From a virus, in IMG/VR virus record IMGVR_UViG_3300028297_000018, positions 1 through 23,029 of that record: DNA of 23,029 nucleotides. One strand, 5' to 3'. Positions 3,889 through 17,302 of the stretch are shown in pieces. Numbering within the stretch: the stretch's first letter is position 1; every line of letters starts with the position of its first letter. The notes under the pieces are model-generated. The model did no database searches and was not told where the DNA came from. It saw only the letters and a list, made by a program, of their open reading frames with translations. Position numbers and translations under genes: made by a program.

Positions 3889-4323
3889 ATGAGTAGACAC
3901 CATCCGTCACGCAGAAGGCGTGAATTTAGCAAATTGAATAAACGATATGTAAAGCGTAACGACCTCAAGAAACTATCGTTAGTACTAAGAGATGTAAAGC
4001 TTAACTTCGATATAGGGCTGGCCGAAGTCGAGGCACTTTTGTTCTGTTACGACTACGAGTTTTTCACCATCAACCATCTCTCGAAGGCCATGGGCAAAAG
4101 CAGGAAGAAGCTGTATGAAAGGACCGTGTTGCCCTTGAAGCAAAAAGGGTACATAGAAGTAATACATCATGGCAAGGAGATTGATTCTTACATCAATGCC
4201 TTATTCCATGAGAAATCAGGTAACGAGCACAGACTCGGTTTGTCTCAATCGGGGCGGATGCTTGTGCAACGAATATACAGGAAGCTGGAGGGCGGAGAGC
4301 CTATTAATCTTCAGACCTCTTGA
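3889..4323 (+). CDS. winged-helix DNA-binding protein, MarR-like
   Basis: 144 residues. A basic N-terminus (RHHPSRRRREFSKLNKR) is followed by a winged-helix-like core: helix FDIGLAEVEALLFCYDY (about 40-56), a helix-turn-helix INHLSKAMGKSRKKLYERTVLPLKQKG (about 61-87), a wing YIEVIHHG and a C-terminal helix after LGLSQSGRMLV. This pattern resembles MarR/PadR-type regulators. It stands alone on the plus strand inside the leftward late block, divergent from the fibre-like gene and convergent with the transglycosylase gene (20-nt 3' overlap). It is a good candidate for a phage regulator, perhaps acting on one of the two promoter classes, but the target is inference. Confidence 0.68.
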   Translation: MSRHHPSRRRREFSKLNKRYVKRNDLKKLSLVLRDVKLNFDIGLAEVEALLFCYDYEFFTINHLSKAMGKSRKKLYERTVLPLKQKGYIEVIHHGKEIDSYINALFHEKSGNEHRLGLSQSGRMLVQRIYRKLEGGEPINLQTS

Positions 4324-4860: not shown

Positions 4861-4903
4861 GCACAATATACGGAATCTAATAGCGTTAAGGATGTAGACA
4901 AAC
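4861..4903 (+). promoter_or_regulatory. phage-type promoter element upstream of the secreted-protein gene
   Basis: GCACAATA (4861-4868), 15 nt, then CGTTAAGGATGTAGACAAAC (4884-4903), ending 16 nt before ATG 4920. Both halves and the spacing match the element found in front of the early genes further right (CGTTnTnACTATAGAAAC), although the second half has several changes. The upstream TTAACATCC part is missing. Its presence outside the early block suggests this gene is expressed with the early programme. Confidence 0.6.
4863..4870 (-). promoter_or_regulatory. degenerate TAnnTTTG-like box abutting the transglycosylase start
   Basis: The minus strand reads TATATTGT, close to TATATTTG, exactly 4 nt before ATG 4858, the same spacing as three better boxes at 6001, 6891 and 7404. 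It overlaps the plus-strand GCACAATA half-element, so the two promoters would compete for the same bases. Weak by itself; the spacing is what makes it worth listing. Confidence 0.35.
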
Positions 4904-4919
4904 CCCCAAACACAATGTC

Positions 4920-5411
4920 ATGAAGAACATCATTTTCATCCTAGCCATCGCATTGGCAACCGTGAGCAACGCTCAATCCCTTAATAGTATCCTCGACGGT
5001 GTGTACGCACCAACAGAGAAGAACGCACTTAGCACACCCCTACTACTAAGTATGAAACCACAGAACGGAATACCGCACGAGGTTCTCGTAATCCGGGTCG
5101 TGGGCATGAATCCAGACTCAATCTTTGGAGACGTACTAGACCCGAACTTGGGTACCTCGCTGGAAACGTACACCGTATTCCACGGAGCAGACGTATTAGC
5201 CTTACCTCTTTTTGAGAAAGGTATCTACACCATCCTTTGCTTAGACGAGGATGGAAACAACGTAGGAGAGGGAGTACATATCGTCGTGAACGAAAACTTC
5301 ATTCAGGGAGTCATAGATACAGGATACGCAGAAAAAAGAAGCAGCCTAATCGTATCGACTAGACCGCTTCGTATTGGTCGGGATAGAACCGAGTTCGTTT
5401 CCTTCAACTGA
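4920..5411 (+). CDS. secreted small protein with signal peptide, unknown function
   Basis: 163 residues. The N-terminus MKNIIFILAIALATVSNA is a textbook signal peptide with likely cleavage before QS. The mature part is beta-rich, with a segment FEKGIYTILCLDEDGNNVGEG (about 98-118) reminiscent of small beta-sandwich domains of Bacteroidetes secreted proteins. It is one of only two plus-strand genes in the leftward block and has its own early-type promoter. An exported phage protein expressed early could alter the host envelope, for example to block superinfection, but no family supports that directly. It ends immediately before the stop of the convergent gene at 5412. Confidence 0.72.
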   Translation: MKNIIFILAIALATVSNAQSLNSILDGVYAPTEKNALSTPLLLSMKPQNGIPHEVLVIRVVGMNPDSIFGDVLDPNLGTSLETYTVFHGADVLALPLFEKGIYTILCLDEDGNNVGEGVHIVVNENFIQGVIDTGYAEKRSSLIVSTRPLRIGRDRTEFVSFN

Positions 5412-5996
5412 TTACATTCCACCTCGAAGACCGGGAACGAGCTTAGGGAGGTCTCTTTCCCTATCGTACTTAACGGGGGCGATGTTGAGTTTAGCTCTGA
5501 GGCCGTCCATGTCTTCGGCACCAAACTCTTCGAACAACGATTTGGTGTAAGAGCCTTGTTTCATCTCAGGGAAAGTGACACCTTTGTCACCGGCCTCCAC
5601 AGCGATACCAGCCATACGATATGCCTGCATCATGTTCTCCGCGTCAGGGAAGATTTCCATGAGGTCTCCCGGATTGATTTGCTTTACTCCATCTTCTGTT
5701 CTCATGAAGACTGCTGCAATCTGTTTACCCGATGGGTCGTCACCGCGATTGTCAAACCCAGAAGCTACGAAAAACTTTCTAGGTGGGTCTCCCACTTCTC
5801 CGCCTTCGTCGTACTGCTTGACGAGACCACCGCTCATCATCTCGTACATCTTACCGCCACCACCCATCTCGACCTTGGTGCCGTGAGCAGCCCTATTCAT
5901 CTTCATGCCGTACATGGCTTTCTTGAGGTCATTACCTCCCTTGCCGTCGGCTGCAAAAAACGGGACGCTCTTGCCCCCAACTTTAACCATTTTCAT
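5412..5996 (-). CDS. putative virion protein, Gly/Met/Lys-rich N-terminus
   Basis: 194 residues beginning MKMVKVGGKSVPFFAADGKG. The N-terminal 70 residues are rich in Gly, Met and Lys, with repeated YGMK/YEMMSGG-like units (residues 29-60) and QYDEGGEVG. The C-terminal part (about 75-194) looks globular. Such N-termini occur in small structural or internal proteins of marine phages, but I know no assigned function. A TATATTTG box with a -33 TTTG lies right before it and would give a leaderless transcript. It faces the secreted-protein gene tail to tail without a gap. Confidence 0.65.
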   Translation of the reverse strand: MKMVKVGGKSVPFFAADGKGGNDLKKAMYGMKMNRAAHGTKVEMGGGGKMYEMMSGGLVKQYDEGGEVGDPPRKFFVASGFDNRGDDPSGKQIAAVFMRTEDGVKQINPGDLMEIFPDAENMMQAYRMAGIAVEAGDKGVTFPEMKQGSYTKSLFEEFGAEDMDGLRAKLNIAPVKYDRERDLPKLVPGLRGGM

Positions 5997-6000
5997 ATCG

Positions 6001-6029
6001 CAAATATAACTGTTGTTTATCTTCTCAAA
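6001..6029 (-). promoter_or_regulatory. Bacteroidetes promoter (-33 TTTG, 17 nt, -7 TATATTTG), leaderless start
   Basis: On the minus strand TTTG (6029-6026), 17 nt, TATATTTG (6008-6001), then 4 nt to ATG 5996. This is the best match to the Bacteroidetes consensus TTG-N17-23-TAnnTTTG in the window. Transcription is expected to start within a few bases of the box, i.e. at or next to the start codon, so the mRNA would have essentially no leader. The -33 box lies just inside the 3' half of the gene ending at 6017. Confidence 0.65.
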
Positions 6030-6899: not shown

Positions 6900-7166
6900 T
6901 CATTTGGTGAGACCCCATTTGTGATTGCTGTATCCAACATGAACCTTGAAGTCAATGGACTTTACGCTCAGTCTTAAGTTATCTTTCTGCTTCTTAATTC
7001 TAGCAGGACTCTTGAACGCGAGCTGTATTAGTCTATCTCGGTGTACGTCACTTCCCCAGATGAGACTTTTATCGTTGCCAGAAAGAACCACATCATTTAT
7101 GCGGTAATCTTTTTTGGTTTTGCCGTCGTGAAGAACAACGTCGCAGAGGTGTATAGGGTCTTTCAT
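6900..7166 (-). CDS. hypothetical protein, 88 aa
   Basis: Begins MKDPIHLCDVVLHDGKTKKDYRINDVVL; beta-rich N-terminal half, basic C-terminal half ending VGYSNHKWGLTK. There is no other Met, so the start at 7166 is the only ATG choice. The start codon falls at the end of a possible minus-strand copy of the phage promoter element (7164-7200), which would again give a transcript with little or no leader. No family recognised. Confidence 0.62.
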   Translation of the reverse strand: MKDPIHLCDVVLHDGKTKKDYRINDVVLSGNDKSLIWGSDVHRDRLIQLAFKSPARIKKQKDNLRLSVKSIDFKVHVGYSNHKWGLTK

Positions 7167-7200
7167 AGACCTATAACGCTATTAGCTGTAGGTTATTGTA
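7164..7200 (-). promoter_or_regulatory. possible minus-strand copy of the phage promoter element
   Basis: On the minus strand: TACAATA (7200-7194), 15 nt, CGTTATAGGTCTATG (7178-7164). The first eight bases of the second half equal those of the copy at 14064 (CGTTATAG), and the 15-nt spacing is preserved. The end of the element runs into the ATG, 12 nt from CGTT instead of 27-55 nt in the plus-strand copies, so this may be coincidence. Confidence 0.3.
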
Positions 7201-7403: not shown

Positions 7404-7439
7404 CAAAAGTAGTAAAATGAATACTACATTAACTCAAAA
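7404..7439 (-). promoter_or_regulatory. Bacteroidetes promoter (-33 TTTTG, 23 nt, -7 TACTTTTG), leaderless start
   Basis: Minus strand TTTTG (7439-7435), 23 nt, TACTTTTG (7411-7404), TAGC, ATG 7399. The -7 box fits TAnnTTTG and lies 4 nt before the start codon, as at 6001 and 6891. The -33 spacing is at the long end of what is reported for flavobacteria. Confidence 0.5.
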
Positions 7440-8555
7440 CCTTCTTTCTGACTTCCTCCTTACTTGCTCTTCTCTATAGAAGGGGTCGAGCTCCGAACCG
7501 AAACAAATCTGCCCCCAGTTAGCTAGTACAATTTGAAGGTCGCTAACTGTAAAGAAGCCATCTCCGTTTAGGTCTCCCTCAATCCAATTAAAGTCACCCC
7601 AATGGCTGAGCATAAGCATTAAGTCGTTAGTACCTACAACTAAATCGCCGCTGATGTCACCTGCGCAATACGGGTCTCCCGTCGTCATGCCCGGCCTAGT
7701 AATCTCAATCATGCTATGCATCCGCTCAATCTGACCTTCAGTAAAGTGTTGCCGGCATGAATCTACATAGTAGTCCATGTGATTGTCCGGTGTGTAGCTG
7801 TACAGGGCAGGGGGGCATATTGGGTTCTCGCAACTCCAGTTCAGTTTAGTTGGCGGGGTATCGCAAACAAAGTCTCCTGTCTCCTCGCAATCACCGAGGT
7901 TTTGTCCGCAGTTGTCTACGTTCCGAAAGACGTGATGCAAACTTAGGAAGTGACCGACCTCATGGATAAGTGTTTTGTTCTCATCTCTATTATCCAATAG
8001 GTGGTCTCCTAGCCTTCCGAATACACTTGTCTTGACCCACACTCCGTCTAGTGTTGTTTGAGGTGTGTACGCTGTCCATGCAAAACCTAGTATGCCTTGA
8101 CAAAGAGCTGGGAATACATGTACGTTCATTACCGTTTCTCTGTCCCATACGATATCCTCTAAGTAGTCATTCATAGAGTTAAAAGCAAACCCATTGTAAG
8201 GAATGCAATTAGTGTTGAGCAACGCATAGGAATCTTCGTACTCATCAAAGTCATGATACTCTATGGCCAATAAATCAAACTCATACATCGCCTCCTCGAA
8301 CTCCTCATTCAGATGAGCAGCTGCATCGTTAACGATATAGAGCGGTAGATTGCTGTGAGAGATGCTGTCAGTGTAGTAAATGTGAACGACGTAGTTGACC
8401 GTCTTCCATTCTGGTTCATCTGGGAAGAACCCCATTGTTCTTACAGCTAAATCCTCTGGCTCACCGAATGTGACACACTGAGAGTTGGCCTTGCTTACAA
8501 GCAGGAGGGTTAGCATCCATAGGACAAAGATTGCATGGAACTTATAGCGTGACAT
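7434..8555 (-). CDS. secreted M43-type zinc metalloprotease with dockerin-like calcium repeats
   Basis: 373 residues from ATG 8553-8555, chosen because it opens a signal peptide (FHAIFVLWMLTLLLVSKANS, residues 6-25) with likely cleavage before QC; a longer start adds 12 residues before it. M43 (pappalysin/cytophagalysin) features are clear: zinc site HEVGHFLSLHH (198-208; ligands H198, H202, H208, catalytic E199), GDFVCDTPP (227-235) and the Met-turn region NHMDYYVDSCRQHFTEGQ (258-275). Two calcium-loop repeats follow: GDISGDLVVGTNDL (299-312) and GDLNGDGFFTVSDL (327-340), each ending in a WG, as in type I dockerin-like repeats. The usual Gly of HExxHxxGxxH is Ser205. A secreted protease is unusual phage cargo; a role in host-surface or matrix degradation is inference. 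Confidence 0.85.
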   Translation of the reverse strand: MSRYKFHAIFVLWMLTLLLVSKANSQCVTFGEPEDLAVRTMGFFPDEPEWKTVNYVVHIYYTDSISHSNLPLYIVNDAAAHLNEEFEEAMYEFDLLAIEYHDFDEYEDSYALLNTNCIPYNGFAFNSMNDYLEDIVWDRETVMNVHVFPALCQGILGFAWTAYTPQTTLDGVWVKTSVFGRLGDHLLDNRDENKTLIHEVGHFLSLHHVFRNVDNCGQNLGDCEETGDFVCDTPPTKLNWSCENPICPPALYSYTPDNHMDYYVDSCRQHFTEGQIERMHSMIEITRPGMTTGDPYCAGDISGDLVVGTNDLMLMLSHWGDFNWIEGDLNGDGFFTVSDLQIVLANWGQICFGSELDPFYREEQVRRKSERRF

Positions 8556-8618
8556 GTGGTTGGATTTAGGGTAAAGCATTCCCCCGCACACTATTAGTAT
8601 TCAACAAGAACGATAGCC

Positions 8619-9102: not shown

Positions 9103-9166
9103 TTAACATCTGTTGGCAATTAGCTCATACTAGAACAAGATTGATATCCGTTATACACTCAACAAC
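9103..9166 (+). promoter_or_regulatory. degenerate first copy of the phage promoter element
   Basis: TTAACATCTGTTGGCAA (9103-9119), GCTCATACTA (9123-9132), 16 nt, CGTTATACACTCAACAAC (9149-9166). When aligned with the copy at 10549 all three blocks fall at identical distances, though the GCACAATA and CTATAGAAAC blocks have several changes. It lies 43 nt before the first rightward gene at 9210. Confidence 0.5.
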
Positions 9167-9209
9167 GCGATAGCTAAATAGATAACATAAACCACATAAC
9201 ACACTGATT

Positions 9210-9527
9210 ATGAACGAGATAACCAACAAAAACAACGGATTGCAAGCGACTATCGAAATGGTTGAGATGCACTTGAAGAGTGCCAGAGTCCTTGCTGAGA
9301 CTGCATTCGGGATGGCTAAGTTCAGCCTTGAATCCATCGAAAGTGAGTTGCGAACCGCTGAAGCCTTGTGCTTGTGCGACCAGACTAAGCGCAATATCCA
9401 AGAGCGTGAGGCAGTAGCCCTAGACGAGCTAGTAGCCGCAAGGAGCACGATGAACGATATCAGGAGAACGCACATCAATCTCAAGTCCAGTATCGGCATG
9501 GGAGATTTCTCAGCACTTGCACAATAA
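9210..9527 (+). CDS. hypothetical helical protein, first gene of the rightward block
   Basis: 105 residues, nearly all helical, with regularly spaced hydrophobics (LQATIEMVEMHLKSARVLAE, then FSLESIESELRTAEALC). No domain recognised; it could form a coiled coil. Its stop codon lies in the GCACAATAA of the next promoter element (9519-9526), so gene end and promoter are fused. As the first gene after the divergence zone it is likely to be among the earliest expressed. Confidence 0.7.
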   Translation: MNEITNKNNGLQATIEMVEMHLKSARVLAETAFGMAKFSLESIESELRTAEALCLCDQTKRNIQEREAVALDELVAARSTMNDIRRTHINLKSSIGMGDFSALAQ

Positions 9528-9560
9528 GCAGAAACCGAGATACGTTAACACTATAGAAAC
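9519..9560 (+). promoter_or_regulatory. phage promoter element upstream of ardC-like gene
   Basis: GCACAATA (9519-9526), 16 nt, CGTTAACACTATAGAAAC (9543-9560). Lacks a TTAACATCC block because it overlaps the end of the preceding gene. It is followed by an unusually long leader (37 nt) containing a hairpin. Confidence 0.65.
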
Positions 9561-9561
9561 A

Positions 9562-9583
9562 GGGGAGGCAATCCAGTCTCCCC
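9562..9583 (+). promoter_or_regulatory. leader hairpin GGGGAG...CTCCCC before the ardC-like gene
   Basis: GGGGAG (9562-9567) can pair with CTCCCC (9578-9583) across a 10-nt loop, directly downstream of CTATAGAAAC and 14 nt before ATG 9598. Only this early gene has such a leader; the others carry A-rich unstructured ones. It could attenuate transcription, protect the mRNA or control translation. No T-run follows. Confidence 0.45.
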
Positions 9584-9597
9584 ACAAATTGAAAGCC

Positions 9598-10524
9598 ATG
9601 AGCAAAGCGAAGAAAGACGTCTACCAGCAGGTCACCGACCGCATCATCGAAGGTCTCCAGACCAAGGGTCTCCAGTGGTTCAAGCCTTGGAACGCAGGTG
9701 ACGGCATGGGTGCTTTGATGCCCATCAATAACACCACGGGGAAAGCCTATCGTGGTCTCAACCAGCTGTTCCTCTGCATCGAGCAGACGGCCAATGGCTA
9801 CGAGCACAACGAATGGTTGACCTACAAGCAGGCGGCTAAGGCTGGCGGCAATGTGGTTAAGGGTTCTACAGGAACTGAGATTGTGTTCTGGAACATCAGC
9901 TACAAGGGTGAGGACGGCAAGTTCTACCGCAAGATTCAGGACATCCCTGTAGGCATGGCGTTCGACAAGCTTTTCAGCCCACGCCTCTGGAACGTGTTCA
10001 ACATCGCCCAGTGCGAAGGCATCGAGCCACGCCGCAAGCCCATGACTCCGGTCGAGCCAGCGGAGCAGTTCAATCCAATCGGTGAGGCTGAGAAGGTGTA
10101 CGCAGAGCTGTACCCCACCAAGCACAAGCCCACGTTGGGTCACGGCGGAGCCAGCGCGTTCTACGCTCCAATGCGCCACCACGTCCAGATGCCCAAGCCT
10201 GAGACCTTCGTCACCAACGATGACTACTACAAGACTCTGTTTCATGAGTTGGTGCACAGCACTGGTCACGAGGATATCTTGAATCGCCTGAACAAGGTGG
10301 CTGCCTTCGGGTCTGAGGACTACAGCAAAGAGGAGCTGGTGGCTGAGATTGGTGCGCAGTTCCTCGTGGGTCTCACAGGCATCAAGCCAAAGGATGACCA
10401 CGTGAACAGCCAAGCCTACGTCAACAACTGGGTCAAGCAGTTGAAGGACAAGCCGAAGATGGCTCTGTCTGCCGCGAACAAGGCAATGAAGGCTGTGGAC
10501 TTCATCATGGGGGGAGAGGCGTGA
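9598..10524 (+). CDS. ardC: ArdC-type antirestriction protein (ssDNA-binding plus zincin)
   Basis: 308 residues from ATG 9598 (the frame is open upstream to 9517, but that would run through the promoter). The N-terminal domain (about 5-130) matches the ArdC ssDNA-binding domain (former DUF1738): DVYQQVTDRIIEGLQ, GLQWFKPWN, NNTTGKAYRGLNQLFL, NEWLTYKQAAKAGG. The C-terminal half carries a zincin site FHELVHSTGHEDILNR (215-230; H216, E217, H220) with a likely third ligand in EELVAEIGAQF (245-255). ArdC proteins protect incoming DNA from host restriction and occur on plasmids and phages. Third codon positions look noticeably richer in G/C than in neighbouring genes, suggesting a separate origin. 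First large rightward gene, fitting early anti-defence expression. Confidence 0.88.
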   Translation: MSKAKKDVYQQVTDRIIEGLQTKGLQWFKPWNAGDGMGALMPINNTTGKAYRGLNQLFLCIEQTANGYEHNEWLTYKQAAKAGGNVVKGSTGTEIVFWNISYKGEDGKFYRKIQDIPVGMAFDKLFSPRLWNVFNIAQCEGIEPRRKPMTPVEPAEQFNPIGEAEKVYAELYPTKHKPTLGHGGASAFYAPMRHHVQMPKPETFVTNDDYYKTLFHELVHSTGHEDILNRLNKVAAFGSEDYSKEELVAEIGAQFLVGLTGIKPKDDHVNSQAYVNNWVKQLKDKPKMALSAANKAMKAVDFIMGGEA

Positions 10525-10548
10525 GCCTCCCCTCCGCCCTTCGGGGCG
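10511..10548 (+). terminator. double hairpin after ardC, second with a TTCG tetraloop
   Basis: First stem: GGGG-AG bulge-AGGC (10511-10520), loop GTGA, GCCTCCCC (10525-10532); it includes the ardC stop codon in its loop. Second stem: CGCCC TTCG GGGCG (10535-10548), a perfect 5-bp stem with a very stable UUCG loop. No U-tract follows, so this may be a weak terminator or an mRNA 3'-end stabiliser. The next promoter element starts at 10549. Confidence 0.6.
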
Positions 10549-10612
10549 TTAACATTAATTCACAAGTAGCGCACAATAAAACGAATACATCCAGCGTTAC
10601 TACTATAGAAAC
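10549..10612 (+). promoter_or_regulatory. phage promoter element
   Basis: TTAACATTAATTCACAA (10549-10565), GCACAATA (10571-10578), 16 nt, CGTTACTACTATAGAAAC (10595-10612), then 9 nt to ATG 10622. The downstream block is one of the best matches; the upstream TTAACATCCGTTAACA block is partly changed. Confidence 0.68.
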
Positions 10613-10621
10613 GAGAGAAAC

Positions 10622-10957
10622 ATGAAAAAATACGACTCAACACCGATTGCCTACGCAAGCTACCCAGAGACTGGAGTAGTCCGAACCGACCGCAAGTTCC
10701 GCGCCACCATCCAGTTCTACACTGGTAGTGCATGGGGGAAGGGCACATGGGCATGCTCCAAGACGTTCAACAACGAGAGCCACGTGGACAACTTCATTGC
10801 ATACATGGAGAGGACTAAGGGCTGGAACGTCGATGAGGTTTGGTATGGAAAGAACCTGACTCCGCTTGAGGACTCTTGGGCGTATCAAGGTGAGGCTGTA
10901 AAGACCAAGTTTCACAAGCCTAATGGATGGAAGGCTAGACGCGCCGCCGGACACTAA
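10622..10957 (+). CDS. hypothetical protein, 111 aa
   Basis: Begins MKKYDSTPIAYASYPETGVV and contains many aromatic residues (AWGKGTWACSKTF, GWNVDEVWYGKN, DSWAYQGEAV). The compact alternating pattern suggests a small folded beta/alpha protein. No family recognised. It has its own promoter element and is followed 12 nt later by the next gene, so the two probably share a transcript. Small proteins of this kind in early phage blocks often target host functions, but nothing here shows which. Confidence 0.7.
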   Translation: MKKYDSTPIAYASYPETGVVRTDRKFRATIQFYTGSAWGKGTWACSKTFNNESHVDNFIAYMERTKGWNVDEVWYGKNLTPLEDSWAYQGEAVKTKFHKPNGWKARRAAGH

Positions 10958-10969
10958 ACAGAAAATAGT

Positions 10970-11263
10970 ATGGGACAGAAAATGATTAAGATAGACACCA
11001 TGACTTGCGGCAAGCACTTCCTTCCTGCAATCTTCAACGGAGACTTCGAGGGTCTCAACGCAAACGAGGAGTTCCTCCTTGAGCGTGAGGTGGGTTGGTA
11101 TAACGCGACGGCTGAGGAGGACTACCCAGACTTTGTTAGCATCGAGTTCGAGTGCACGTCAAGTGAGCGATACATCTGTGGATGTGACCTGACAGGACTA
11201 TTCGGCGAATGCGTGGAGGTAAAGGTCTTCGTGACCTTAGACGAGAACTACGTGAAGGATTAA
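10970..11263 (+). CDS. hypothetical protein, 97 aa
   Basis: Begins MGQKMIKIDTMTCGKHFLPAIFNGDFEGL; an alternative start is the ATG four codons later. The segment LPAIFNGDFEGLNANEE resembles a motif (A-NGD-GL-xxE) of small phage proteins grouped as DUF6926-like, though I hold that loosely. Acidic overall, with several Cys (YICGCDLTGLFGECVE). Its stop codon TAA lies inside the TTAACATCC of the next promoter element. Confidence 0.68.
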   Translation: MGQKMIKIDTMTCGKHFLPAIFNGDFEGLNANEEFLLEREVGWYNATAEEDYPDFVSIEFECTSSERYICGCDLTGLFGECVEVKVFVTLDENYVKD

Positions 11264-11323
11264 CATCCGTTAACATACTGCGCACAATAACAGCAAACTT
11301 GCCGCGTTATTACTACAGAAGAC
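11260..11323 (+). promoter_or_regulatory. phage promoter element
   Basis: TTAACATCCGTTAACA (11260-11275), GCACAATA (11282-11289), 15 nt, CGTTATTACTACAGAAG (11305-11321). A conserved leader AAAAACAATTCAAT (11330-11343) follows and abuts ATG 11344. The first base of the element belongs to the last sense codon and the stop codon of the preceding gene is inside it. Confidence 0.7.
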
Positions 11324-11343
11324 ATCATTAAAAACAATTCAAT

Positions 11344-12549
11344 ATGAGAGTTACCAAGAAAAACGACATTGCCTTCACGCCTGATTCCAAGTCAGCCATC
11401 ATCGCACTTGTAAGACTACGCAAAGATTCGTTTGCAAACATCTACAAGATTGAGCGAGCAATCCGAGACGAGTACATCAAGCTTACAGCTAACAGCTTCG
11501 GCCTCATCCCAGCAGATTACTATCAGCTCCAAAAACCGGAGAACGCCAAGGCTATGGCAAAGGCTAGGTTGTCTGTAATTAGTGGGGATGATGTGGCTAT
11601 ATGCAAGCGGTTCGTTGAAGTCGTACCAAACAAGTCTGACTACACGATATCGCTATGTGAGGAAGGTGAGGCTGTATTGGAGGAGGCGAACGGCAATGGG
11701 TCAAGCCATTCATCATACAGCAGTCGTGTTAGTGAGTACGACATAAACCGAGTTTTAGAATTTGTCTTAGGCAAAAAGAGCATTGACAACCAAGAGCTAC
11801 TAGACCACAACGAAGACGTTAAAAGGTCTATCAAGAGAGGCAAATATCTCAAGGCAGTACGCAAGGGTAATCCGCTACGCGCTGGACTTGAAGATGGGCG
11901 GGTGTGCTACGAGTTCACCGATGCTGTGTTCGATGACCACATTGACATGTTTACTCGTGTACTCTTCATTGGTCACCAACTACGTGTCGTAAAAGATACT
12001 GACTCCCCTGTGTATGTCGTAGAAAAACTGACTACCAATTCAGTCAATCCATGGAGGATAGTGGCGTTCGAGGACAAGCTGTACGACGTTATCGTGGGGC
12101 TGTCTTATAAGCTACACGACCGAGAACTGCGGGCAGTAGAGTCAGCGATTCGACAATGCGAGCGAGGTATGCCATTGATTCAAGACCTGTTCACACAGGA
12201 CGAGATTCGACAGCTGGCCGATGCCCAGTGCGTGGAACTGCCAGAGCAGACTACGTTCTCTGTAGTGAAAGTTGGCTCAGAGTCTTTCGGGTGCGTTGAG
12301 TGCTCTAAGGTCAAGCCAGAGGCGAACGTGATTGCATCTGGACTCAAGTATGAGGATGCTGATAAGTTGCGAGGGCTATCAGACAGAGATGCTACAGCAA
12401 AGCGACGAGTGGAGAACAAAGTCAATCGCATCAACAACATGAGAGAACAGCTCGTTCAAGAAAGGGCTGAGTTGGTTAAGCTGGAGGAGGAGCAAGAGCA
12501 GGCTGAAAGCAACTTGACTAATCACCAGAACCAAATACATGCGGCATGA
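11344..12549 (+). CDS. large hypothetical early protein with C-terminal coiled coil, 401 aa
   Basis: The longest unassigned rightward protein. N-terminus MRVTKKNDIAFTPDSKSAI, then a helical region with LRKDSFANIYKIERAIRDEY (28-47), a Ser/Asn-rich linker NGNGSSHSSYSS (about 116-127), a second helical/beta region (VSEYDINRVLEFVLGKKS onward) and a C-terminal coiled coil (about 350-395: NKVNRINNMREQLVQERAEL, KLEEEQEQAESNL). No enzyme motif or known domain recognised. It has its own complete promoter element and leader. Could be a scaffold or adaptor for other early proteins; function unknown. Confidence 0.75.
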   Translation: MRVTKKNDIAFTPDSKSAIIALVRLRKDSFANIYKIERAIRDEYIKLTANSFGLIPADYYQLQKPENAKAMAKARLSVISGDDVAICKRFVEVVPNKSDYTISLCEEGEAVLEEANGNGSSHSSYSSRVSEYDINRVLEFVLGKKSIDNQELLDHNEDVKRSIKRGKYLKAVRKGNPLRAGLEDGRVCYEFTDAVFDDHIDMFTRVLFIGHQLRVVKDTDSPVYVVEKLTTNSVNPWRIVAFEDKLYDVIVGLSYKLHDRELRAVESAIRQCERGMPLIQDLFTQDEIRQLADAQCVELPEQTTFSVVKVGSESFGCVECSKVKPEANVIASGLKYEDADKLRGLSDRDATAKRRVENKVNRINNMREQLVQERAELVKLEEEQEQAESNLTNHQNQIHAA

Positions 12550-12713
12550 TGTTCGATAACGCACACAACCCATTCATCGAGCTTAACCTATCGAAGGAAG
12601 AGCTGGTGGAAGCATACAACTTCTTCCAAGGAGTTGACCTAGAATCCCAGATGCTAGTAGCTGATGCACTTGATGCTAAGTACAGCTTGATGGAGTTAAT
12701 TAACATCCGTTAA
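12546..12713 (+). CDS. small hypothetical protein, 55 aa
   Basis: ATG 12546 overlaps the stop of the 401-aa gene (ATGA), with a second in-frame ATG right after. The peptide begins MMFDNAHNPFIELNLSKEEL and ends LMELINIR; the helix VEAYNFFQGVDLESQMLVAD looks like a genuine folded segment. The last residues (LINIR) and the stop are encoded by the TTAACATCCGTTAACA block of the next promoter element. Unknown function. Confidence 0.62.
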   Translation: MMFDNAHNPFIELNLSKEELVEAYNFFQGVDLESQMLVADALDAKYSLMELINIR

Positions 12714-12762
12714 CAAACGACGGACAATATCTCAGAACAAGGTGCGTTCTAACTATAGAAAC
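12700..12762 (+). promoter_or_regulatory. phage promoter element
   Basis: TTAACATCCGTTAACA (12700-12715), GGACAATA (12722-12729), 15 nt, CGTTCTAACTATAGAAAC (12745-12762). The leader AAAAACAATTCACC (12768-12781) abuts ATG 12782. One of the three most complete copies. Confidence 0.72.
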
Positions 12763-12781
12763 ACCACAAAAACAATTCACC

Positions 12782-13033
12782 ATGAGTAAAATCATTAAGA
12801 CAACAGAAGACGGATGGGACTGCGCTCCCGCCATCATGGAGGTATCCGAGCTACTACCACATGCTCGTGAGATGCACTACGAGATTCAGTGTTGCACGCG
12901 AAGCATGAGCGCAAAGGAAATGCTCAGTGACCTCAAGGATTTTGTCACCGAACTGCATGACAGGATAGATGGCGCAATCGAAGAGTACACGGGAGTTGAA
13001 TTTGAAACCATTGAGGAAGATGATGAAGAGTAA
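12782..13033 (+). CDS. hypothetical acidic protein, 83 aa
   Basis: Begins MSKIIKTTEDGWDCAPAIME; mainly helical, with an acidic C-terminus EFETIEEDDEE. Two adjacent Cys at QCCTRS. Start supported by the conserved 14-nt leader directly before ATG. No family recognised. It overlaps the following gene by 14 nt. Confidence 0.7.
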   Translation: MSKIIKTTEDGWDCAPAIMEVSELLPHAREMHYEIQCCTRSMSAKEMLSDLKDFVTELHDRIDGAIEEYTGVEFETIEEDDEE

Positions 13034-13253
13034 AGCCGCAATCCCAGAGAGAGGTCAGTTGACCGACATGATTATCAGCTTCGAGGAGCGACAATCTACA
13101 GTTGAAGAAGTATTGGAGTTGTTCTCCGTGCTCATCCAAACTGGCATGGCTTGGTCACTTCAAGGTAGCTATGGTCGTACTGCTCGTCACCTCATCGACC
13201 AAGGAAGTTTATCCGAGGATGGCACAATAACTCACGAGTTTCTGCCGTTCTAA
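13020..13253 (+). CDS. conserved-type hypothetical phage protein, 77 aa
   Basis: I start at ATG 13020 (a second ATG follows immediately); a longer version from 12969 would be buried in the upstream gene. The segment VEEVLELFSVLIQTGMAW followed by LQGSYGRTARHLIDQGSLS matches a pattern (ELF-LI-TG-AW-LQGxYGRxA-xLI-xG) seen in many small phage and plasmid proteins of unknown function. The downstream promoter element overlaps its last 32 bases. Confidence 0.7.
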   Translation: MMKSKAAIPERGQLTDMIISFEERQSTVEEVLELFSVLIQTGMAWSLQGSYGRTARHLIDQGSLSEDGTITHEFLPF

Positions 13254-13263
13254 CTATAGAAAC
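13222..13263 (+). promoter_or_regulatory. phage promoter element inside the end of the preceding gene
   Basis: GCACAATA (13222-13229), 16 nt, CGTTCTAACTATAGAAAC (13246-13263). The second half is identical to the copy at 12745 even though here its start encodes the last residues and stop codon of a protein. Leader AAAAAACAATTCAAT (13265-13279) abuts ATG 13280. No TTAACATCC block. Confidence 0.7.
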
Positions 13264-13279
13264 CAAAAAACAATTCAAT

Positions 13280-13513
13280 ATGAGTATGTTCGATAAAACC
13301 CCACGTCACTTCAGCGTGACACAAAACAAGGCCACCGAAGCCGGAGTCATGAAGATTCAAATCGGAAAGCTTGAGCTGTCAATCACAACGCTCAACGGAA
13401 TCAATGAAGCTGTAGTGTTCTCAGAGAGCGGAGACCAAGTTTCTGAGACCAAGTTCACAGACTTCAACGATGTCATATCGTTATTCTGGAAGCTAGAATC
13501 ACTGGACATTTAA
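13280..13513 (+). CDS. hypothetical protein, 77 aa
   Basis: Begins MSMFDKTPRHFSVTQNKATE and looks beta-rich (MKIQIGKLELSITTLNG, AVVFSESGDQVSETKF). Start supported by the promoter at 13222 and the conserved leader. No family recognised. Confidence 0.68.
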   Translation: MSMFDKTPRHFSVTQNKATEAGVMKIQIGKLELSITTLNGINEAVVFSESGDQVSETKFTDFNDVISLFWKLESLDI

Positions 13514-13524
13514 GTTAACCCCCC

Positions 13525-13538
13525 AAAAACAATTCACC
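13525..13538 (+). promoter_or_regulatory. conserved 14-nt translation leader without its own promoter
   Basis: AAAAACAATTCACC directly before ATG 13539, identical to the leader at 12768-12781, and nearly identical to those at 11330, 13265 and 14084. Here no GCACAATA/CTATAGAAAC element precedes it, so the leader must act independently of the promoter, most likely as the ribosome-recruiting sequence in place of a Shine-Dalgarno. Confidence 0.6.
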
Positions 13539-14018
13539 ATGGGATTAGATATGTACCTGACTCGGAATCACTATGTGAGGAACTGGAGTCACCGACCAGA
13601 CAGAGACTACAAGGTCTCTGCTAAGATGAACAACAAGAGCGTACCCTTCCTCGGAAGCGTGGGCGAAGTGACCAGCATCCGCGAGGAGGTGCTGTGCTGG
13701 AGAAAGGCCAACGCCATCCATAAGTGGTTCGTTGATAACGTACAGGACGGAGATGATGACTGCGGGAAGTACTACGTAGGTATCGAGCAACTACAAGAGT
13801 TGCGACACGCATGCCTTGCCGTCATCGCATCGCCAGAGCGAGCCGAGGAACTACTTCCCACACAAGGTGGGATGTTCTACGGGAGCACAGAGTTTGATGA
13901 GTACTACTTAGAAGACTTGCGCATGACCGCAAAGGTTATAGAGAAGCTTGTGCAACAGCAAATCCAAGCCAAGGATATGAAGCACTCGATGGACTTCGAG
14001 TACAGCTCATCTTGGTAA
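13539..14018 (+). CDS. conserved-type hypothetical phage protein (MGLDMYL family), 159 aa
   Basis: Begins MGLDMYLTRNHYVRNWSH, an opening shared by a widespread group of phage proteins. Further matching segments are CWRKANAIHKWFVDNVQDG (53-71), a YYVGIEQLQEL segment and GMFYGSTEFDEYYLEDL (about 112-128). The function of that group is unknown to me. Ends two bases of spacing-free before the next promoter element: its stop codon TAA (14016-14018) is followed directly by TTAACATCC. Confidence 0.75.
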   Translation: MGLDMYLTRNHYVRNWSHRPDRDYKVSAKMNNKSVPFLGSVGEVTSIREEVLCWRKANAIHKWFVDNVQDGDDDCGKYYVGIEQLQELRHACLAVIASPERAEELLPTQGGMFYGSTEFDEYYLEDLRMTAKVIEKLVQQQIQAKDMKHSMDFEYSSSW

Positions 14019-14081
14019 TTAACATCCGTTAACAAACGGAGTGCAATAACCCAGATACTCTGGCGTTATAGATATAGAAAC
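14019..14081 (+). promoter_or_regulatory. phage promoter element
   Basis: TTAACATCCGTTAACA (14019-14034), GTGCAATA (14041-14048), 15 nt, CGTTATAGATATAGAAAC (14064-14081). Leader AAAAACATTTCATC (14084-14097) abuts ATG 14098. Last clear copy; the genes further right lack it. Confidence 0.7.
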
Positions 14082-14097
14082 CTAAAAACATTTCATC

Positions 14098-14502
14098 ATG
14101 AGTAAAGTAAATAGTAATATCGAGTGGACAGACGAGGCAATGATGGCCTTCTGTCAAGTGTACGCAGGCAACACCAACTCATCGAGAGTGCCAATGCAAG
14201 TCAGCTACAAGAAGTATCACAAGCTGAAGATTAATGAGAAGCTGGAGGCATTCAAGCAAGACTGGTCAGAGTACCAGCGTAGGCTCAAGTTTCCCTTCAG
14301 CGAGGGAGATGAGTACTGGGTTTATGGTGATGATGGAGTTCTGCGCTACAGCGTATGGGACGATGTGTCCGAGGAAGACCACATGGAAGAACCCGACCGC
14401 AAGTACTTCACCTACGAGCAAGGCATGGATATGGCTCGTCGCAACGGAATCCTGAGCGACTATCACCGGTTGACTGGTATTCTTAAAGCACCAACACCAT
14501 GA
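14098..14502 (+). CDS. hypothetical protein, 134 aa
   Basis: Begins MSKVNSNIEWTDEAMMAFCQ. Aromatic- and acid-rich middle (DEYWVYGDDGVLRYSVWDDV, 91-110 region) that looks like a small beta sheet, then helical C-terminus EQGMDMARRNGILSDYH. No family recognised. Overlaps the following gene by ATGA (14499-14502). Confidence 0.7.
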   Translation: MSKVNSNIEWTDEAMMAFCQVYAGNTNSSRVPMQVSYKKYHKLKINEKLEAFKQDWSEYQRRLKFPFSEGDEYWVYGDDGVLRYSVWDDVSEEDHMEEPDRKYFTYEQGMDMARRNGILSDYHRLTGILKAPTP

Positions 14503-14786
14503 GTTACGAATCATTCCGCAACAGAGAGACGTGGTTGGTCAACGTCTGGGGTTTTGTTGATGGTCTAGCAGAGACCTACATCGACACCGAGAATCCGAAA
14601 GACCTAACGGGAGCAAGTCCCCAGTGGTGTAGAGATTGCTTCGATATGATGGTCGAGGATACCTACAGCAAACTACCTAACGGAATCCTCAAGGACTTCG
14701 TTGATGGATGCCTTCAGACAATAGATTGGCACGAGCTGTCAATTACGGTGAAGGACACAATAAAAGAGCAACGCGAAACGTTGTAG
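14499..14786 (+). CDS. conserved-type hypothetical phage protein, 95 aa
   Basis: Begins MSYESFRNRETWLVNVWGF; the NRETWLVN-W motif followed by a DWHEL segment near the C-terminus is characteristic of a group of small phage proteins (DUF7249-like, from memory) of unknown role. Translationally coupled to the upstream gene through ATGA. Confidence 0.7.
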   Translation: MSYESFRNRETWLVNVWGFVDGLAETYIDTENPKDLTGASPQWCRDCFDMMVEDTYSKLPNGILKDFVDGCLQTIDWHELSITVKDTIKEQRETL

Positions 14787-14812
14787 ATGTATAAACCATA
14801 ACCCCTTTTACA

Positions 14813-15031
14813 ATGAGTAAGACAACAGAAGATATGAGCCGTGTGGAGATGTTGACAATGCACTTCGACCTTCACGATAGTAAGACAGTGTGCCGGATGT
14901 TCCTTGATGCTTGCCGCAGGTACGACCAAGGCAGGATAGACCAGAGTCAGATGGTGCAGGCATGCATGCTGGCCGCAGACGAAGCAGAAAACCTTGGGTT
15001 GCGAGACCCTTTAAAAGAATGGGACTCATGA
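14813..15031 (+). CDS. hypothetical protein, 72 aa
   Basis: Begins MSKTTEDMSRVEMLTMHFDL; helical, with MVQACMLAADEAENLGL near the end. No family recognised. The leader CCCCTTTTACA is unlike the A-rich leaders upstream. Ends with ATGA overlapping the next start. Confidence 0.65.
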   Translation: MSKTTEDMSRVEMLTMHFDLHDSKTVCRMFLDACRRYDQGRIDQSQMVQACMLAADEAENLGLRDPLKEWDS

Positions 15032-17213: not shown

Positions 17214-17287
17214 GCTCTCGTAGCTCAACTGGATAGAGCATCACCCTTCTAAGGTGAATGTTGCAGGTTCGAGTCCTGCCGGGAGTA
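17214..17287 (+). tRNA. tRNA-Arg (anticodon TCT)
   Basis: Full cloverleaf: acceptor GCTCTCG/CGGGAGT, D arm GCTC-GAGC, anticodon stem TCACC/GGTGA with loop CTTCTAA (anticodon TCT), T arm GCAGG-TTCGAGT-CCTGC, discriminator A at 17287. CCA is not encoded. It decodes AGA (and AGG). It lies within the rightward block, 16 nt before the next gene. Phage tRNAs usually compensate for codons rarer in the host than in the phage. Confidence 0.93.
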
Positions 17288-17302
17288 CAAAATTTTATTT
17301 CA

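Follow-up and report, generated by a model that had tools for sequence, protein, structure and literature searches.

What reads a promoter-like element that recurs along one arm of an uncultured phage genome? IMG/VR record IMGVR_UViG_3300028297_000018, a viral sequence of 23,029 bases analyzed here in its entirety (the window), carries such an element before its rightward genes. An earlier inspection of the letters alone (the sequence-only reading) had described it as a bipartite, sigma-like promoter with an activator-like upstream block, belonging to a phage-specific class. Our analysis upholds the bipartite reading: the element almost certainly represents a real promoter class, and that class is probably of the extracytoplasmic function (ECF) sigma type. 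As an explanation of the whole, we lean toward transcription of the early genes by the RNA polymerase of the host in complex with an alternative sigma factor of the ECF type. The label "phage specific" is probably wrong, as the same boxes stand before bacterial ECF sigma genes and before type IX secretion system (T9SS) and gliding genes.

Copies of the element in the window

Across the compared sites of the window and its relatives, the core consensus is (G)CACAATA-N15/16-CGTTnTA-N5-AGAAAC. Boxes of the form CGTTnTnACTATAGAAAC lie at 9543, 10595, 11305, 12745, 13246, and 14064, each with 0 to 3 mismatches, where 0.18 would be expected by chance and none of 100 shuffles reached six; the recurrence first reported from the letters alone is thus real. 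The upstream block TTAACATCCGTTAACA (0.20 expected) is exact at 11260, 12700, and 14019, has 3 mismatches at 9103, and reads TTAACATTAATTCACA at 10549, the five positions at which it had been reported. We also scanned the window, at a threshold of 8 bits, with a position model built from 69 sites in other phages; the window, G001, and G002 did not contribute to it. Exactly nine sites exceeded it, eight rightward (4863, 9521, 10573, 11284, 12724, 13224, 14043, and 14757) and one leftward (7199), with scores of 22.8 to 40.7 bits; the top score in 100 dinucleotide shuffles of the window was 15.5 bits. The copies listed by the sequence-only reading therefore stand, including a degenerate one at 9123 that proves to be part of a copy in full register, and three further sites (14757 and 4863 on the plus strand, 7199 on the minus strand) had been overlooked. 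The distance from the box to the ATG is 9 to 37 nt, with the minimum of 9 at gene 10622, and not 17 to 38 nt as had been stated. The element is concentrated at the start of the rightward arm, and two other copies lie within the leftward arm. The copies are listed below with their model scores and the homologue contexts in which the element is kept.

9103-9166 (+), degenerate copy in full register before gene 9210: block 9103-9118 (3 mismatches), ATACTA 9127, CGTT 9149, AACAAC 9161; below 8 bits
9519-9560 (+), copy without the TTAACA block, before ardC: GCACAATA 9519, CGTT 9543, AGAAAC 9555; 33.7 bits; kept in 14/18
10549-10612 (+), copy with upstream block, before gene 10622-10957: TTAACATTAATTCACA 10549, GCACAATA 10571, CGTT 10595, AGAAAC 10607; 36.2 bits; kept in 8/10
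11260-11322 (+), copy with exact block, before gene 11344-12549: block 11260-11275, GCACAATA 11282, CGTT 11305, AGAAGA 11317; 37.3 bits; kept in 9/9
12700-12762 (+), copy with exact block, before gene 12782-13033: block 12700-12715, GGACAATA 12722, CGTT 12745, AGAAAC 12757; 38.2 bits; kept in 12/13
13222-13263 (+), copy without block, before gene 13280-13513: GCACAATA 13222, CGTT 13246, AGAAAC 13258; 40.7 bits, the best in the window; kept in 14/16
14019-14081 (+), copy with exact block, before gene 14098-14502: block 14019-14034, GTGCAATA 14041, CGTT 14064, AGAAAC 14076; 32.2 bits; kept in 6/6
14755-14796 (+), copy before gene 14813-15031: ACACAATA 14755, CGTT 14779, ATAAAC 14791; 33.3 bits; kept in 6/9
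4863-4901 (+), copy before an isolated rightward gene (4920-5411) in the leftward arm: ACAATA 4863, CGTT 4884, AGACAA 4896; 28.8 bits; kept in 3/3
7161-7199 (-), leftward copy before the leaderless gene 6900-7166: ACAATA 7199-7194, CGTT 7178-7175, ATG 7166, exactly at CGTT+8; 22.8 bits

Several early genes also share an A-rich leader, AAAAACAatTCA..ATG, at 11330-11345, 12768-12783, 13266-13281, 13525-13540, and 14084-14099. It likewise precedes gene 13539, a gene without an element, and it fits the Kozak-like initiation described for Bacteroidota.

Anchoring of the element to a predicted transcription start

The anatomy of the element was read from 159 non-redundant [AGT]CAATA-N15/16-CGTT sites. 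AGAA begins at CGTT+8 in 46 of them, and no other offset below 40 has it in more than 5; for ATG the count at CGTT+8 is 13, with a maximum of 4 at the other offsets below 21. Twelve of these 13 leaderless sites are orthologues of the leftward gene 6900-7166 (the window gene included) and are not independent, though their surroundings differ; the remaining one precedes another gene. The 80 sites with neither an AGAA-like stretch nor an ATG at CGTT+8, several of which are coding, were left out of the logo. Of the 79 anchored sites, 50 have a 15-nt spacer and 29 a 16-nt spacer, in a search that permitted only these two lengths; with 11 to 20 nt permitted, and gaps other than 15 or 16 penalized by 2 bits, the spacer is 15 nt in 71, 16 nt in 43, and 14 nt in 1 of 115 sites.

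TATAG, which the sequence-only reading had included in the element, falls outside this conserved core. It is found at CGTT+5 in 29 of the 159 sites and is substituted in diverged relatives (e.g., by CGTTATAGAGACAGAAAC or CGTTCTAATAACAGAACA), while CGTT and the AGAA stretch are retained at a fixed distance. Because AGAAAC or a leaderless start codon sits exactly 8 nt after CGTT, we place the transcription start at CGTT+8, so that the predicted first base is the initial A of AGAAAC or, in leaderless genes, of ATG, and does not lie a few bases beyond AGAAAC. ACAATA then lies at -33 and CGTT at -12.

A sigma-A-type promoter within the window provides a ruler for this frame.

5996-6029 (-), sigma-A-type leaderless promoter of gene 5412-5996: TTTG at -33 (6029-6026), TATATTTG at -12 to -5 (6008-6001), ATG at +1 (5996)

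The same leaderless arrangement is found in the relatives G001, G002, and G008. The element and this late-arm promoter are thus two sets of boxes on one -33/-12/+1 geometry, which is also that of Bacteroidota sigma-A promoters (TTTG at -33 and TAnnTTTG at -12 to -5). Both boxes of the element differ from these in their letters, as the sequence-only reading had recognized for TAnnTTTG. A promoter box of Flavobacterium johnsoniae is likewise described at -12 to -5, in the same frame as the sigma-A promoter of the window (PMC6847099). The sigma-A-type promoters at 6001-6029 (-) and 7404 (-) nearly abut start codons, which suggests that late mRNAs may be leaderless.

Upstream of the element, TTAACA half-sites recur at intervals of about one helical turn, at 24/25, 14/15, or 5 nt ahead of the upstream box. 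A block of two half-sites is present in 24 of the 66 AGAA-like sites and stands 9 nt closer in 3 of the 24. This spacing matches that of PhoB/OmpR-type direct repeat sites and would suit a regulator or UP-like site.

Conservation of the element with presumed early genes of related phages

A scan for the terminase TerL recovered at least 599 related stretches, and the group is one of widespread, uncultured, podovirus-like phages, probably of Bacteroidota-type bacteria. The nearest isolates by TerL are phages of Flavobacterium (elemo), Cellulophaga, Tenacibaculum, and Maribacter and one unassigned record. Four relatives, examined over all or nearly all of their records of 57 to 61 kb, have two arms, with structural genes leftward and ArdC, small genes, and recombination and replication genes rightward. 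From this gene content, the rightward arm would be early and the leftward arm late. Two rightward genes bear on what follows.

9598-10524 (+), ArdC-like anti-restriction gene, the first large gene of the rightward arm (Pfam ArdcN, 5e-30; MPTase-PolyVal, 2e-31)
13020-13253 (+), DUF7417 gene; its final codons run into the following element (Pfam PF24192, 5e-22)

For eight element-bearing genes of the window, the element is kept in 72 of 84 homologue contexts, and for six replication genes it is found in 0 of 114; these contexts include records near-identical to the window and are not independent. Genes kept by related phages that have lost the element, which the sequence-only reading had named as evidence against it, are thus the less common case. 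Outside both totals are genes lacking a strict element in the window, namely 9210 (3/4 contexts with a strict element, though the window copy is degenerate), 10970 (7/9), 12546 (0/13), 13539 (2/8), and 14499 (3/13), and a gene labeled 13027 in the wrong frame was excluded. Gene 16602 (13/22 contexts) was counted on neither side, since its match falls within the end of the preceding coding sequence. That match, ACAATAACC..ACGTTCT, occurs upstream of homologues in these 13 contexts and not in the window, and is either a promoter or a coding coincidence. Across 25 whole records, ACAATAN14-17CGTTNTA has 48 matches, compared with 0 for the reversed control, and 15 of the 25 records contain a match.

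The same boxes in bacterial genomes

An exact 18-base form of the element has 20 matches in GTDB contigs, 12 of them Bacteroidota by title and several close before an ATG. In the phylum to which G055, a genome titled Lentisphaeria, belongs, 59 genomes contain 15 sites of the form ACAATA-N15/16-CGTTATA. Four of these sites lie directly before ECF sigma genes (L255, L437, L441, and L442, assigned by Pfam, partly on the first 80 residues), two precede efflux adaptors, and three precede small proteins that by sight appear to be secreted. The four loci could represent an autoregulated ECF class, with a regulon of secreted Pro-rich proteins and efflux adaptors.

Sites in Bacteroidota stand before gldJ at four loci, three of which (L246, L278, and L288) are above the NCBIfam cut-off and one of which (L453, a truncated frame) is below it. 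Others stand before porT/SprT (L451), a Band-7 gene (L465), and a weakly PorG-like protein (L222, L223, and L230, with L232 assigned by sight). At L246, two ACAATA-N15-CGTT sites are arranged in tandem upstream of gldJ. At L457, L458, and L291 (L292 is similar), the site is followed by a common stretch ending AATTAGAATTTTA, with no open frame nearby; this could be an RNA gene driven by promoters of this class.

As ECF sigma and T9SS/gliding genes stand behind the same boxes in bacteria, we infer that the phage copied a host sigma-ECF class. No sigma-70 domain (PF04542 or PF08281) was detected in 13 phage records, in a search whose controls were positive.

Candidate readers of the element

We propose that host RNA polymerase with an ECF-type sigma factor would read the element, with (G)CACAATA at -33 as the site of sigma region 4 and CGTTnTA at -12 as that of region 2, and would start at the A eight bases past CGTT. 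The TTAACA-N4-TTAACA direct repeat spans roughly -57 to -42, shifted 9 nt toward the boxes in diverged relatives, and lies on one helix face; it may serve as an activator or UP-like site and raise the activity of some copies. The leading candidate reader would be a host sigma of the flavobacterial SM6 kind, associated with type IX secretion, gliding, and Band-7 genes. The early host-takeover block, with ArdC first, would then be expressed through an SM6-type regulon and the structural arm through ordinary sigma-A promoters. We place more confidence in the ECF-type reading than in its narrower form, a T9SS/gliding sigma in particular, which we advance tentatively.

ECF sigma promoters have a -35 box with an AAC core and about 16 nt between boxes. 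The spacing of the element agrees, and its conserved CGTT, which keeps a constant spacing to the predicted start, corresponds to a -10 region box of the CGT type. For the SM6 promoters of Flavobacterium psychrophilum, attributed to a sigma-ECF factor, a CGT box is likewise reported in the -10 region; among their genes are gldN, porU, a homologue of PG0189, an ECF/anti-sigma pair, and two genes of the Band-7 family (PMC9723704). The phage-type boxes resemble SM6 in this box and, through the Bacteroidota sites before gldJ, porT, and a Band-7 gene, perhaps also in a link to T9SS and Band-7 genes; on our reading, all of these would form a single sigma-ECF promoter class. The phage class differs in preceding presumed early genes and in adding AGAAAC at the predicted start and the TTAACA repeat; the comparison with SM6 covers its -10 region box and its gene set.

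Several observations weigh against this reading. On the phage side, the nearest TerL isolates are only 27 to 45% identical; the element is absent from the three isolates examined (elemo, phi18:3, and MW202828); and the start base is a prediction from sequence. The upstream box, (G)CACAATA, lacks the AAC core of ECF -35 boxes, a core that may not be general, since the same box precedes four ECF sigma genes; the element is accordingly filed as ECF-like and not as a proven member of the ECF promoters. The motif proposed for Porphyromonas gingivalis SigP is unlike ACAATA (PMC4800418).

On the bacterial side, the 59 genomes with 15 matches give 9 for the reversed control (counted by eye). Bacteroidota show no excess, with 75 motif versus 114 control matches in the first 100 genomes after G038 and 35 versus 53 (control counted by eye) in 395 genomes. 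A frame of at least 60 amino acids starts within 120 nt at 10 of the 24 new loci from the 395-genome search, and 3 of these 10 frames are T9SS, gliding, or Band-7 genes, an apparent enrichment; L246 and L288 came from other searches, and the L246 genome was chosen for its exact match. The PorG-like match scores 21 bits against a cut-off of 130. In 1.6 of the 3.47 Mb of the flavobacterium-like genome G113, ACAATA-N15/16-CGTT precedes 0 of 1,398 genes, a scan of low power in which other spacings also gave 0 or 1 match. Only two of 40 gldN loci (mostly flavobacterial by sight) have an exact site, and in one of these ACAATAA doubles as the end of the upstream gene. Exact-pattern searches also fix the boxes by construction, which leaves the identity of the downstream genes as the independent evidence. 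Two candidates were dropped on these counts: gldN as a test gene, and a general Bacteroidota promoter class.

Among the alternatives, the one that survives best, although we consider it unlikely, is that a phage factor (a sigma-appropriating protein with an activator, as at T4 middle promoters) respecifies the host polymerase, or that a phage sigma has diverged too far for Pfam, the resemblance to host sites being due to chance. The element is restricted to one lineage, and in TerL relatives that lack it (G019, G024, and G022) words of the TATATTTG type rank among the most frequent upstream 9-mers; both observations fit this alternative, as does the resemblance of the TTAACA repeat to a regulator site. 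ArdC and the DUF7417 gene have tblastn matches in 9/9 element-positive and 0/7 element-negative relatives (several records are partial, and the negatives include G022 and G025, each with one pattern match judged not promoter-like). However, both co-segregating genes lie inside the controlled block, and 167 records of other phages encode DUF7417 proteins. The negative sigma domain search also speaks against a phage factor, which moreover leaves the ECF, gldJ, and porT genes behind the same boxes unexplained. A small protein with weak winged-helix matches is encoded at 3889-4323 (+), inside the leftward arm, and is a candidate general regulator. It is conserved, yet its relatives also occur in element-negative phages, and it was dropped as an element-specific activator.

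It is improbable that the element is not a promoter at all but a leader, a translation or regulator-binding repeat of the start-associated sequence (SAS) or stoperator kind, or a cassette boundary for recombination like the promoter early stem-loop (PeSL) of T4-type phages. The position before variable small genes and the common A-rich leader after several copies are what such a repeat might show, but the fixed -33/-12/+1 distances, the leaderless copies, and the helically phased half-sites favor polymerase binding. Cassette exchange may still occur as a side effect. SAS of cluster K mycobacteriophages resemble the element in preceding non-structural genes, mostly in one orientation, in being conserved with those genes, and in having a subset with an extra upstream block, and differ in containing a ribosome-binding core and lying 3 to 7 bp ahead of the start codon, whereas the element is anchored to a predicted transcription start (PMC3203893). 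PeSL cassettes similarly place promoter repeats between small, variable genes (PMC4503421). They join a stem-loop to an early promoter; the comparison with the element covers sequence.

We give even less credence to a promoter for a phage-encoded RNA polymerase, either T7-like or a virion polymerase within the 3,286-residue protein P0001 of G001. CTATAGAA does resemble SP6/T7 promoters, and for P0001 neither Pfam, above its cut-off, nor the PDB sequences gave a match. T7-like promoters have an ACTATAG core ending at +1 and no -33 box; the -33 box and the 15/16-nt spacer found here are foreign to them, and a T7/SP6-like promoter was dropped because TATAG is not conserved and CGTT and AGAAAC are. 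No PF00940 match was found in 17 records, in a search in which no control scored, and P0001 lacks a D.DGD motif, with only four invariant DxD pairs. A phage RNA polymerase or sigma was dropped on these negative domain searches and the lack of a polymerase signature in P0001 in the searches run. Least credible is a variant sigma-A promoter, in which the housekeeping sigma tolerates CGTTnTA with help from a TTAACA-bound activator: the element shares the -33/-12 geometry of late-arm sigma-A promoters but has neither TTTG nor TAnnTTTG letters, 42 of the 66 AGAA-like sites lack the two-half-site block, and the ECF and T9SS gene context points elsewhere.

Other features of the window and its relatives

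A structural protein of relative G001 has a crassvirus muzzle domain. Among named phages, the only DNA relative of the early block is a 33-base stretch inside ardC, shared with five Brevundimonas phages. Gene 7434-8591 (-) encodes a predicted secreted protein that by sight has an HExxH motif and a dockerin-like end, which is unusual for a phage, and a tRNA-Arg(TCT) gene lies at 17214-17288 (+), within the replication arm.

Implications for early transcription

T4 middle promoters (MotA/AsiA) combine a replaced -30 region box with an activator and serve one phage gene class. The element resembles them in these respects and differs in that its -10 region is also altered and that no MotA- or AsiA-like gene was identified. 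We found no description of such an element in the literature at the title/abstract level, in a search outside whose coverage most subscription papers fall.

With its predicted start base, this conserved promoter class would make early transcription annotatable in widespread, uncultured, podovirus-like phages. It also offers a testable case of phages that would parasitize a host ECF regulon rather than the housekeeping sigma, and the host-side matches suggest an upstream box for T9SS sigma-ECF promoters. More speculatively, the early program may run through the host T9SS/gliding sigma, assisted by a response regulator of the host that would bind the phased TTAACA repeat. Its genes would then be expressed most strongly while a cell assembles its gliding or secretion surface, perhaps in the very cells to which the phage can adsorb, and the infection decision would be coupled to host surface physiology.

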